Assembly: GCF_017104565.1 (NCBI RefSeq)
Contig: NZ_JAAGPD010000033.1
Span: forward strand, 62,001-126,000
From: Paraburkholderia sp. Tr-20389
GTDB lineage: Bacteria; Pseudomonadota; Gammaproteobacteria; Burkholderiales; Burkholderiaceae
DNA length: 64,000 nucleotides
Direction: 5' to 3'
A program made the position numbers and the translations under genes. The notes below the pieces were generated by a model, which ran no database searches, had not been told where the DNA came from, and saw nothing but the letters and a program-made list of their open reading frames with translations. Numbering within the stretch: position 1 is the stretch's first letter; each line of letters starts with the position of its first letter. Positions 26,087 to 31,194 of the stretch are shown here, piece after piece.

Positions 26087-26189
26087 CAATTAATCGGGAG
26101 CGCAAAATCACTTGTCGCGCCACGACTCTCTCCCCATTTATATTTCCACGCTAGAGCCTAAAGGCGGACAACTGGGCGTCGATATACAC

Positions 26190-26262
26190 GGAAGGGCAAA
26201 ACCGGAGCGATCCGGCGACGCAAAGCTAAAGGGACTCCGCACAGGAGTTAGCCAGTTGCCCG
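26190..26262 (+). promoter_or_regulatory. Cyclic di-GMP-I (GEMM-I) riboswitch
   Basis: The leader carries the GEMM-I core in order. GGGCAA (26194-26199) pairs with TTGCCC (26256-26261) as P1. P2 is CCGGA (26202-26206) with TCCGG (26210-26214), hardly interrupted by a GCGA-type GNRA loop sharing flanking bases. The conserved GACGCAAAGC follows at 26217-26226. P3 comprises GCTAA with TTAGC (26248-26252) and CTCC (26235-26238) with GGAG (26244-26247). The GG of the GGGCAA segment retains the guanine that distinguishes c-di-GMP sensors from the A-containing cGAMP variants. It lies 60 bases upstream of a secreted spherulin-4-like protein. The family match is strong; an extra A after GGGCAAA is slightly atypical. 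Confidence 0.85.
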
Positions 26263-26316
26263 CTGTATCCGCAGCGGGCCAAACGATGGACGGCGAGACA
26301 CGCCGTCGTCAGGAGG
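26258..26316 (+). promoter_or_regulatory. Putative riboswitch expression platform and ribosome-binding site
   Basis: GCCCGCTG (26258-26265) pairs perfectly with CAGCGGGC (26272-26279) and shares bases 26258-26261 with the 3' strand of riboswitch P1, so the two helices exclude each other. A second hairpin, GACGGCG (26289-26295) with CGCCGTC (26301-26307), ends three bases before AGGAGG (26311-26316), the site used by the ATG at 26324. There is no T tract after either hairpin, which points to translational control or transcript stability rather than intrinsic termination. Confidence 0.5.
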
Positions 26317-26323
26317 CATCGAG

Positions 26324-27145
26324 ATGTTCAACGCTCGCACACCCGGTTCAGGGTCTCGCGCCATTCAATGGCTGCGTCGCGTCGCGTTGCTTGCAGTGGC
26401 ACCGCTTGCCATTGCCGCTCACGCGAACGCTTTCGCAGCCACTGTGCTGCCGCTGACCGTCCCCGCCTATTTCGATCCCGTCGGCAAGGGCGCCGGCTAC
26501 TGGAACGACCTCGCGACGACGGCGGCCAAAGTACCGACCACGGTCATTCTTAATCCCGATAGCGGCCCCGGCACGAATGCCGACGCGACCTATATCGCCG
26601 CAATCGGGAAAGTGCATGCAGCGGGCGGACGCGTGATCGGCTATGTGTCCACGTCGTACTCGAAGCGTTCGCTGTCGGCTGTCGCGACGGACATCAACCG
26701 CTATATCGCGCTCTATAAGATCGACGGTTTCTTCATCGACGAGATGACGTCGGATAGCGTGACGTCGCATATCCAGTTCTATCAGTCGATCTACAACTAC
26801 ATCAAAGGCTTGTCGCCTGCGTATTCGGTGACGGGCAATCCCGGCACGAACATTCCCGAACTCTACGCAAGCCTGCCCACGGCCGATCAGTTCGTCGTAT
26901 TCGAAGACTCGGCCAAACACTACGCGAGCTACGCGCCGGCGAAATGGCAAGCGGGCTATCCGGTGAAGCGCTTTGTGCACATGGTGTATGGCGCGACGGA
27001 GGCGCAGATGCCCGGCATCGTGTCGTACGCGGCGAAACATGGCGCAGGCAGCGTGTTCGTCACGTCGACGGGCTTGCCGAATCCGTACAAGAACCTGCCG
27101 TCGTGGTGGAGTCAGTTGGTGAGCAACGTGCTCGCGGTGAAATAA
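26324..27145 (+). CDS. Secreted spherulin-4 family protein (GH135-like)
   Basis: 273 residues with a clear signal peptide (basic RRVALLAVAPLAIAAHANAFA, cleavage near residue 38). The mature protein is a TIM-barrel-like spherulation-specific family 4 domain: LTVPAYFDPVG, VPTTVILNPDSGPG, GRVIGYVSTSYSKR, DGFFIDEMTSD (candidate catalytic acids) and ADQFVVFEDS. Fungal Sph3 of this family (GH135) cleaves galactosaminogalactan, and related domains occur in bacterial exopolysaccharide systems. The AGGAGG site lies 7 bases before the ATG. The c-di-GMP riboswitch in the leader suggests a role in biofilm matrix remodelling. A strong terminator follows, so it is monocistronic. Substrate is inference. Confidence 0.88.
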   Translation: MFNARTPGSGSRAIQWLRRVALLAVAPLAIAAHANAFAATVLPLTVPAYFDPVGKGAGYWNDLATTAAKVPTTVILNPDSGPGTNADATYIAAIGKVHAAGGRVIGYVSTSYSKRSLSAVATDINRYIALYKIDGFFIDEMTSDSVTSHIQFYQSIYNYIKGLSPAYSVTGNPGTNIPELYASLPTADQFVVFEDSAKHYASYAPAKWQAGYPVKRFVHMVYGATEAQMPGIVSYAAKHGAGSVFVTSTGLPNPYKNLPSWWSQLVSNVLAVK

Positions 27146-27196
27146 CCAAGAAGAAAAAGGGCGCTTCGCGCGCCTCTGCAGTCGATTGTCGAAGTA

Positions 27197-27228
27197 CGCC
27201 AGGCGCTGATGTGCCTGGCGTTTTTTTT
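27197..27228 (+). terminator. Strong Rho-independent terminator after the spherulin-4 gene
   Basis: CGCCAGGC (27197-27204) pairs perfectly with GCCTGGCG (27213-27220), followed by eight T residues (27221-27228). Confidence 0.93.
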
Positions 27229-27355
27229 GCGCGCGCCAGGTGATGTGCGCATGCGCTATCACGTTGAAGGAATACGCTTAGAATGCGAGCTGAATTGGAT
27301 TGCGTTCGACGCATCGAGGCGCAGCGATAGCGCCATCATCAACGGAGAGGATGTT

Positions 27356-28930: not shown

Positions 28931-30928
28931 TCAGCTGCGTTCGAGGAACGGGCGCAGCTTGTCCGCGCGGCTCGGGTGATTGAGCTTGCGGATCGCCTTG
29001 CCTTCGATCTGGCGGATACGCTCGCGCGTCACGTCGAACTGGCGGCCCACTTCTTCGAGCGTCAGTTCCGAAGCCGTGTCGATGCCGTAACGCATACGCA
29101 ACACCTTCGCTTCGCGCGGCGTGAGCGCGTCGAGGGCTTCGTCGATCGCGCGGCGCATGTTCGCATGCACAGCGGCGTCGGCGGGCGACGTTGCCGACGT
29201 GTCTTCGATCATGTCGCCGAGCGTCGTGTCGGCATCTTCACCGACGGGCGAATCCAGCGATGCCGGATTCTTCGCGATCTTCAGGATGCTGCGGATCTTC
29301 GCTTCAGGCATGTCCATGCGTTCGGCGAGCACGGACGGATGCGGCTCCTGACCCGTTTGCTGCACGATCTCGCGCTGGATGCGGTTCAGCTTGTTGATCG
29401 ACTCGATCATGTGAACCGGCACACGAATGGTGCGCGCCTGGTCGGCGATCGCGCGCGTGATGGCCTGACGGACCCACCACGTTGCGTACGTCGAGAACTT
29501 CCAGCCGCGACGGTATTCGAACTTGTCCACCGCCTTCATCAGGCCGATGTTGCCTTCCTGGATCAGATCGAGGAAGTGCATGCCGCGATTCACGTACTTC
29601 TTCGCGATCGAGATCACGAGACGCAGGTTCGCTTCGATCATCTCGCGCTTGGCCTGACGCATCTTCGATTCAGCCGAGCCGAGCTGCTTGTTGATCTGCT
29701 TCAGTTGCTGCAGCGGCAGCGCGATCGACGCTTCGATGTCGACGAGCTTCTGCTGTTCCGACTGGATGGCGGGCAGGTGACGCTCGAGGGCCGGGCCGTA
29801 GGTCTTCGACTTCGCGGCGATGCGCATCGTCCAGTCGAGATCCGTTTCGTTACCCGGGAACGACTCGACGAACGCTTCGCGCGGCATGTCGCAGCGGTCC
29901 ACCGCGATCTGCAGGATGCTGCGTTCGATCGCGCGAACCTGCGCAACCTGCGCCTGCACTTCCGCGCAGAGACGGTCGATGGTCTTCGCCGTGAAGCGGA
30001 TCGGCGTGAGTTCCTGCTGGATCGATTCGCGCAGATTCGCGATGGCCGTGGCGCGGCGCTTGTCCGTGACGGGCATGTCGGGGACGCTGGCGAACAGCGC
30101 GCGCACGCGCTCGAAAATCGCGAGGCTGTCCGCCGTCAGCTGTTCGAGGCGCGCGGCATTGGCTTTTTCGCCGCCGTCGTCGGAGAGATCGCCGTCTTCG
30201 TCGTCGGACTCGTCGTCCGAGGCGCTCGCGTCGAGTTCTTCTTCAGCGGCTGCGTCGGCTGCGTCGTCGTCGAGTTCGGCGGCTTCGCTCGCGTCGCTGA
30301 TGCCGTCGACCAGCTCGTCGATGCGGATTTCGCCCGCAACCACGCGGTCGACGTCCGAGAGAATCGTCGAGATGATGGACGGGCACATCGCGATGGCTTG
30401 CACCATGTCCTGCAGGCCGCCTTCGATGCGCTTGGCGATTTCGATTTCGCCGGCGCGCGTCAGCAGCTCGCTCGCGCCCATTTCACGCATGTACATGCGG
30501 ACCGGGTCGGTAGTGCGGCCGAATTCGGAGTCGACGGTGGACAGCGCGACTTCGGCTTCTTCATCGGCCTGATCGTCCGATGCGGCAGCCGATGGGCCGT
30601 CGTTCAGCAACAGCGTTTCCGCGTCGGGCGCCGTTTCGTACACGGAAACGCCCATTTCGCCGAACGTGCTGACGATGGTTTCCATCGCGGCCGTTTCGGT
30701 GAAATTGTCGGGAAGGTGGTCGTTGATGTCGGCGTGCGTCAAATAGCCGCGCTCGCGGCCCAGCGCGATCAGCGCGCGCATCTGACGTTGACGTTCTTCA
30801 GCGAGAGATTCCATCAAGGCCATGTCTTGCGGCGCGGAGGCAGGTTGTGCCTTGGCCTTTGCTGCGCGCTTGGGCGCTTTCGCTGCGGTGGTTTCGAACT
30901 GGGAGTTGTCCCGGTCAAGCTTTGCCAA
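28931..30928 (-). CDS. rpoD: RpoD-type primary sigma factor paralogue
   Basis: 665-residue sigma-70 factor. After a basic N-terminal tail, region 1.1 ([20 protein letters not shown]) is followed by 1.2 ([30 protein letters not shown]). An acidic insert lies at about 235-290 ([16 protein letters not shown]). Region 2 reads [20 protein letters not shown], then [20 protein letters not shown] and [14 protein letters not shown]; region 4.2 reads [20 protein letters not shown]. The start is TTG at 30928, six bases after GAGGAG; no upstream ATG has a site. It lies apart from dnaG/rpsU, the usual rpoD neighbours, and is followed by its own terminator, so it may be a second RpoD rather than the housekeeping copy. 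Promoter-reading residues look intact. Confidence 0.9.
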
Positions 30929-31194
30929 TACGTTCTCCTCGGCAGGCTGTTTCGCTACCCCGCGCGCACGCGCGCGGCAGGTGACGTGACCTGTCGGATC
31001 GTGAGGGAGGGCGGGGTGTTGCACGAATCGATTGGCGCGGACCGCTTGGGAGCCTGGCTTGGGAGCCTGTTCGGAAGCCCAGTCGGAACACAGTTCGACG
31101 CGTGCAGAAAAGTGAATCTGCAAGTATAGCAAGAAATGTGGTGCAGTGCACCAGTTTTATGCAACTGCATATGCCCCATGCTGGTGCGCGATCC

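Follow-up and report, generated by a model that had tools for sequence, protein, structure and literature searches.

The window is the whole 64,000-nucleotide stretch of Paraburkholderia sp. Tr-20389 DNA that was analyzed. The locus described here is composed of a putative flagellar promoter, a short leader with a cyclic di-GMP (c-di-GMP) aptamer, and a gene for a spherulin-4-like glycosidase. Its features, in window coordinates, are as follows.

26159..26185, + strand: FliA/sigma-28-type promoter, with TAAA at 26159-26162, a 15-nt spacer, and GTCGATAT at 26178-26185
26185..26263, + strand: c-di-GMP-I (GEMM-I) riboswitch aptamer, Rfam RF01051, 51.8 bits
26258..26279, + strand: hairpin H1 (anti-aptamer), GCCCGCTG/CAGCGGGC, from the consensus fold and covariation of 40 leaders
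26278..26280, + strand: GCC foot of H1, the proposed switch strand, whose partner is the GGC of the Shine-Dalgarno region
26285..26310, + strand: hairpin H2, which would bring the foot and the Shine-Dalgarno together; 7 of 9 pairs changed on both sides
26311..26317, + strand: Shine-Dalgarno AGGAGG and a conserved C; the GGC partner of the foot is 26315-26317
26324..27145, + strand: Spherulin4/GH135-like glycosidase, predicted to be secreted, 273 aa, PF12138 E 4e-46
27196..27229, + strand: hairpin and T run 3' of the gene that resemble an intrinsic terminator, from a pattern scan of the sequence

Given the terminator-like hairpin and T run 3' of the gene, the transcript looks monocistronic. An RpoD-type sigma-70 gene, recognized by eye, lies a few genes downstream (window 28931-31132, - strand). 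The host's best named relatives are Paraburkholderia sp. C35 and Burkholderia sp. Ac-20365, at 90-91% identity.

The aptamer is a member of Rfam family RF01051. An earlier note, made from the letters of this DNA, had recognized a GEMM-I core and proposed a covariance-model search. This search (cmscan) gives 51.8 bits, where the gathering score is 35 bits, with E 3.2e-7 and a model span of 1-87, i.e., the full model. The positions that the note gave for the core, made up of a GNRA loop (GCGA), GACGCAAAGC, and TTAGC...TTGCCC, are correct. It is the sole RF01051 match found in the host's 9.0 Mb genome, where 150 of 599 first-look candidates were scored, and 14 control genomes gave no match. Membership in the c-di-GMP-I riboswitch family is thus confirmed at the level of sequence, and binding of c-di-GMP is predicted. 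In Vc2 numbering, 26195 and 26259 are taken to be the equivalents of G20 and C92, with positions read off the model alignment.

The open reading frame begins at 26324, leaving a gap of 60 nt after the aptamer. Its product matches the PF12138 (Spherulin4) profile with 157.9 bits, where the cut-off is 30.2, and its N-terminus resembles a signal peptide by eye. A spherulin-4 domain 60 bases past the aptamer is therefore present as first reported, and its secretion is likely. Among solved structures, phmmer finds the Aspergillus spherulin-4/Sph3 chains 5c5g and 5d6t as relatives (E ~6e-14). In the alignment with 5c5g, residues D139 and E194 fall opposite chain positions 116 and 172, which probably correspond to the Sph3 catalytic residues D166 and E222, using an offset of 50 derived from the published numbering. 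D139 is invariant across 29 aligned sequences, the host protein included, and E194 is found in at least 90%. Excerpts of the literature differ on the number of the Asp: a D166A variant is named in PMC8546845, and the catalytic pair is given as Asp196/Glu222 in PMC12054363. The alignments support placement of the enzyme in the GH135-like/Spherulin4 family, with predicted glycosidase activity.

The aptamer-gene pair recurs in dozens of species and is thus not a product of chance. Among 145 genomes of the genus, RF01051 exceeds its cut-off in 25 and PF12138 in 28, and a Spherulin4 gene adjoins every above-cut-off aptamer (25/25; Fisher p 4e-25, phylogeny not corrected). Across 398 genomes of the family, the corresponding numbers are 34 and 42, and by coordinates the two are adjacent in 33 of the 34 aptamer-bearing genomes. 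The direct link from RNA to gene that had been proposed from this one locus is borne out by these counts. The exception in the family, G161, has two strong c-di-GMP-I aptamers (65-66 bits) and no Spherulin4. One is L097 (G161:C36), which precedes a small, charged, secreted-looking protein, and the other is at G161:C9:578581-578669.

Named loci in which the aptamer core precedes the gene belong to Paraburkholderia, Caballeronia, Robbsia, and Ralstonia. The same order, confirmed by cmscan, is observed in L153-L155, which come from two named Oxalobacteraceae and one Burkholderiales MAG. Each of these three loci also has, ~1.3 kb upstream of the gene, a match to the Betaproteobacteria toxic small RNA family.

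L153:1637-1699, - strand: RF02278, covariance-model match
L154:1638-1700, - strand: RF02278, covariance-model match
L155:91-153, - strand: RF02278, covariance-model match

For 45 distant loci (L156-L200; Nitrosomonas, Zoogloea, Planctomycetota, Legionella, and others), a pattern search found no core within 450 nt other than a chance-looking match in L194. RF01051 was not found by cmscan in 9 of these 45 loci or in four aptamer-less Burkholderiaceae loci.

Spherulin4 is present without a matching aptamer in 9 of the 42 family genomes: two of g10 (L091 and L094, with a degenerate aptamer), four of g12, two of g25, and G474. In the genus there are three such genomes, G003, G001, and G056, and the Spherulin4 member is divergent in the last two. 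In G003 (L048), a FliA box matching 11/12 positions precedes Spherulin4 and no riboswitch is matched; the gene can thus be tied to this type of promoter even where the RNA switch is missing. Locus L026 (G143) reads as a decaying copy: its aptamer scores 31.8 bits, under the cut-off, its Spherulin4 is fragmented, its FliA box looks intact, and PelG is near. L027 (G052, 31.3 bits) was rejected as an aptamer. It lies inside a coding region with no Spherulin4 near and is a probable chance match.

The promoter was scored against a FliA consensus that is assumed here to be TAAA-N15-GCCGATAA. A similar consensus is printed in the excerpted part of PMC3627812. The host promoter agrees at 10/12 consensus positions, with A or T allowed at one position, and 0/200 shuffles of the host's 150-nt upstream region reach its score. 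Transcription is predicted to start just before the aptamer. A box of at least 10/12 is found in 35/35 loci (25/25 in genus g1, 8/8 in g10, and 2/2 in g16), a match that shuffled upstream regions attain at 0.25-0.9% (null fractions 0.0025-0.009). A 15-nt spacer is present in 31 of the 35 loci, and in these the information content averages 1.91 bits in the -35 box and 1.48 in the -10 box versus 0.27 in spacer positions 3-15, the first two, partly conserved spacer positions being omitted. The boxes are therefore kept while their surroundings drift. From the end of the box to the GGCAAA of the aptamer there are 7-10 nt in every locus except L003 (21 nt), so the transcript should open with the aptamer. 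The box is absent from the Ralstonia-type genus g24 (0/15) and from the Oxalobacteraceae-type loci L153-L155 (0/3).

A strict FliA pattern has 11 matches in the host genome versus 8 for the reversed control, a weak excess. Motility genes follow 4 of the 10 matches scanned: FlgM, two chemotaxis receptors, and a CheY-like receiver. The other six, which are not clear motility genes, encode a HAMP-domain protein, MreB, an M30 peptidase, a solute-binding protein, a Cache/PAS sensor, and CsgG. It is the conservation of the box, not the pattern count in the host genome, that suggests sigma-28 control.

Two conserved hairpins, H1 and H2, follow the aptamer. They were derived from alignment A2, which contains 40 of 48 distinct leaders. 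The eight excluded leaders are L026, which is decayed, the divergent L024, and six that had been cut at a wrong start codon (L067, L073, L075, L076, L090, and L092). H1 pairs a GCCCGCC-like strand that includes C92 with GGCGGGC (RNAalifold); in the host, C92 (26259) is paired with G26278. H2 ends directly before the Shine-Dalgarno. In the 40 leaders, 93.4% of the H1 and H2 cells are paired, and 10 of the 16 pairs show changes on both sides. Slid versions of the hairpins are 29-42% paired, and 0/500 shuffles, which leave the relatedness among leaders in place, pair as highly. Judged from sequence and folding, the platform and the bound aptamer are mutually exclusive, since H1 uses C92.

The foot of H1 is proposed to pair with the last three bases of the Shine-Dalgarno region, GGC. 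This GGC is present in 50/50 leaders and invariant in A2, and the remainder of the Shine-Dalgarno varies. The variants, from a motif list drawn up after the leaders had been viewed, are AGGAGGC, CGGGGGC, CAGGGGC, CAGAGGC, GGGAGGC, and AAAAGGC. In 20 other leaders used as a control, the base after AGGAGG is C in 6, A in 9, G in 3, and T in 2. The near-identical leaders L094 and L128 have lost aptamer P3 and have AGGAGGA as the Shine-Dalgarno; L091 has a damaged aptamer and still has AGGAGGC. After aptamer loss, the conserved C is gone in L094/L128 and L048 only. Because the foot helix consists of 3 bp that do not vary, it is beyond the reach of a covariation test. Three other pairings were set aside. 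Two that were judged by eye, one between the Shine-Dalgarno and a complementary stretch of the P3 strand and one in which CGAUG and CAUCG enclose the Shine-Dalgarno, are each confined to some clades, and a 5' CAACUGG pairing with the 3' edge of the aptamer is clade-specific and overlaps the promoter spacer.

Constrained folding was applied to 50 leaders, a set in which L021 shares the leader of L020 and from which the Ralstonia-type L069, L076, and L079 were left out. The bound state was represented by holding C92 and G20 unpaired and enforcing two aptamer helices. In the host leader, the probability of the foot:Shine-Dalgarno helix is 0.989 under this constraint, 0.000 with H1 enforced, and 0.046 unconstrained. 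Over the 50 leaders, the bound-constrained mean is 0.81, with values >0.5 in 43 and <=0.5 in 7. Enforcing H1 brings the helix to 0 in 50/50. The unconstrained mean is 0.24, and 11 leaders exceed 0.5, 7 of them Ralstonia-type.

Opening the region from the Shine-Dalgarno to the start codon costs 6.27 kcal/mol in the bound state versus 3.81 with H1 (50 leaders). The bound state is costlier by >0.5 in 45/50, with a mean of +2.47 kcal/mol, and the reverse is observed in one (L068). When the foot helix is forbidden, the bound cost falls to 2.17 kcal/mol. Shuffled platforms were compared for 23 of the 50 leaders, hand-picked for diversity. They have a mean difference of 0.19 versus 2.62 observed, and 0/25 replicate means are as high; singly, 11/23 leaders exceed all 25 of their own shuffles. 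With the foot helix closed and opening costlier in the bound state, the expression platform is predicted to act on translation, with c-di-GMP turning it OFF. The bound fold lies ~6.6 kcal/mol above the free ensemble. Because of this cost, a purely thermodynamic switch would be weak and co-transcriptional folding must be assumed; the switch is likely to be decided while the RNA is being made.

The opposite sign is considered unlikely. Here, c-di-GMP would turn the gene ON, and the enzyme would trim or remodel Pel in cells that have just attached and still contain the flagellar sigma factor, or would be needed for Pel synthesis. Excerpts of the literature describe both signs among c-di-GMP riboswitches (PMC6366702) and report Sph3 as essential for GAG synthesis in Aspergillus (PMC12054363). 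Moreover, the ligand-free RNAalifold consensus pairs the GGC of the Shine-Dalgarno with another GCC, that of the aptamer's AGCCAGUUG, and the ligand would release this pairing. This competitor was allowed in the constrained-fold calculations, yet in 45/50 leaders the start region remains more tightly closed in the bound than in the H1 state. Loci with a damaged or missing aptamer (L048, L091, and L094/L128) keep the FliA box and an open gene, which fits the loss of a repressor better than the loss of an activator, although the events are few. If the enzyme served synthesis, its expression through the flagellar sigma factor would also be mistimed. The OFF sign is the preferred one.

Pel is favored by c-di-GMP through PelD, and how cells leave a Pel matrix is, to our knowledge, poorly understood. 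PelG is found in 61/145 genus genomes and in 25/25 of those with the aptamer-gene pair (Fisher p 1e-11); in the family, it is found in 146/398 genomes and in 33/33 with the pair (p 3e-16), both values being uncorrected for phylogeny. Family genomes with Spherulin4 contain PelG in 39 of 42 cases, and those without it (G168, G263, and G474) have the lowest-scoring Spherulin4 members. PelG is also present in G003 and in G143, the genome with the decayed locus, and is absent from G001 and G056. Many Pel genomes have no Spherulin4.

PelG lies <=14 kb from the aptamer in 13/25 genus genomes and also in G143, and by coordinates it is similarly close in the g10 genomes G330 and G379. In the other 12/25 it is farther away or on another contig, and in the host's own genome and clade it is not near the gene. 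At locus L207, the glycosidase gene is divergent from a 929-aa open reading frame at the PelA position. This frame has no Pfam or NCBIfam match and is called PelA by position only. It is followed by PelB, PelD, DUF3492/glycosyltransferase, PelG, and GH114-like domains. The DUF3492/glycosyltransferase frame is presumably PelF-like, and RxxD tetrapeptides are present in PelD. The host itself has two different pel loci on other contigs. L211 (C9) encodes PelB, a PelF-like protein, PelG, and a PelA-position frame with a GH114-like domain; L212 (C8) encodes PelB, PelG, and a separate GH114-like gene. Neither has a c-di-GMP aptamer.

The most likely substrate, as these gene associations suggest, would be the cell's own Pel, which is rich in GalNAc. 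According to excerpts of PMC12054363 and PMC8546845, the characterized Sph3 prefers acetylated polymer, and Pel is partly deacetylated. The enzyme might act instead on foreign galactosamine polymers, e.g., the fungal galactosaminogalactan met by swimming soil bacteria, with the Pel association reflecting shared ancestry. The closest solved relative is the fungal Sph3, and the host's own clade has PelG far from the gene or on another contig, both of which speak for this substrate. It is nonetheless considered improbable in view of the presence of PelG in all pair-bearing genomes of genus and family and the proximity of PelG in 13 genus genomes, G330, and G379.

Two further explanations concern the RNA. 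Control by transcription, through attenuation or Rho, in place of closure of the Shine-Dalgarno would be compatible with H1, which is strong, G+C-rich, and shares C92 with the ligand. It is very doubtful, as neither H1 nor H2 is followed by a U tract and a pattern scan of the + strand of the leader found no intrinsic terminator-like site. Variant GEMM-I classes exist, and some relatives best match RF03168, with scores under the RF03168 cut-off, but another cyclic dinucleotide ligand such as cGAMP is hardly credible, since the equivalents of G20, A47, and C92 (numbering taken from Vc2) are those of the c-di-GMP class and invariant in 40/40 aligned leaders.

The arrangement considered somewhat probable overall is a sigma-28-driven, c-di-GMP-repressed glycosidase that acts on the cell's own Pel. 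In swimming cells, the flagellar sigma-28 promoter would make a short leader that begins with the c-di-GMP-I aptamer. At low c-di-GMP, the 3' edge of the aptamer, C92 included, would pair into H1 and lock the GCC foot away; the Shine-Dalgarno would be open, and the secreted GH135-like glycosidase would be made. At high c-di-GMP, the ligand would hold C92 during transcription and block the lowest pairs of H1. The freed GCC would then pair around H2 with the terminal GGC of the Shine-Dalgarno, and translation would be shut off. One messenger would thereby favor Pel, through PelD, and withhold a Pel hydrolase. Swimming cells could free themselves from Pel or avoid being trapped by it.

The RNA and protein families, the conserved pairing, the promoter motif, the covariation of H1 and H2, and the co-occurrence and linkage with Pel were computed. 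We infer ligand binding in vivo, the OFF sign, the substrate, and the role in dispersal, with confidence that falls from ligand to sign to substrate to phenotype. The reading of the locus as a dispersal or remodelling circuit receives indirect support from the sigma-28-type promoter, the predicted OFF platform, and the Pel linkage. Extension of the circuit to the whole family is about as likely as not. Here, c-di-GMP would command Pel twice, by activating Pel export at the protein level through PelD and by withholding, at the RNA level, a sigma-28-transcribed hydrolase, with C92 handed between ligand and hairpin and the GCC between hairpin and Shine-Dalgarno.

If this is true, a single signal builds the matrix and withholds its dissolver. 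Motility (sigma-28), a second messenger, and a matrix-cutting enzyme would be joined compactly on one transcript. A likely single target would be assigned to the c-di-GMP-I riboswitch of many Burkholderiaceae, and a new expression-platform logic is predicted. Bacterial GH135-like enzymes would also become candidates for use against biofilms built on Pel.

Both the RNA and the protein are typical of the families to which they belong. The earlier note knew of no description of the two together. This stands for the literature searched, where the listed matches, available as excerpts, contain no description of the pairing and no joint mention of "spherulin" and "riboswitch"; beyond that literature the claim does not extend. 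Neither the sigma-28-type promoter nor the hand-off of C92 and the foot is described among those excerpted matches.

Known c-di-GMP-I riboswitches include Vibrio Vc1 (gbpA), Vc2 (tfoX), and those of Aeromonas chitinase genes (PMC6366702, in excerpt). The present RNA shares their aptamer family, their ligand-contact residues, and a secreted, surface-related target. Unlike in these systems, the target here is GH135-like and tied to Pel, the promoter is sigma-28-type, and the platform would pass C92 between ligand and H1 and the foot of H1 to the Shine-Dalgarno.

Aspergillus Sph3 is a GH135 enzyme, and the hydrolase domain of PelA belongs to GH166 (excerpts of PMC12054363 and PMC8546845). The present enzyme shares with Sph3 the Spherulin4 family and the aligned catalytic Asp and Glu, and with both proteins GalNAc polymers as the predicted class of substrate. 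Points of difference are that it is bacterial, free-standing, probably secreted, and outside the transcription direction of the pel operon, with predicted RNA control by c-di-GMP.

The merRNA of Bdellovibrio, which contains a c-di-GMP riboswitch, is expressed massively in the attack phase, and the FliA motif was found at 92/140 attack-phase promoters in the same study (PMC3627812, in excerpt). Both merRNA and the present leader tie a c-di-GMP aptamer to a flagellar or attack programme. In the excerpted text, however, no gene is conserved downstream of merRNA, for which a role as a store of c-di-GMP is proposed, whereas the aptamer here lies in the leader of a gene.

Cd1 of Clostridioides difficile is an OFF switch on the flgB flagellar operon (excerpt of PMC6366702). 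As in Cd1, c-di-GMP would repress a gene of the motile state by means of a riboswitch, the sign being predicted here. According to that excerpt, Cd1 controls the transcription of flagellar genes, whereas the present target is likely a matrix hydrolase behind a translational-looking platform.
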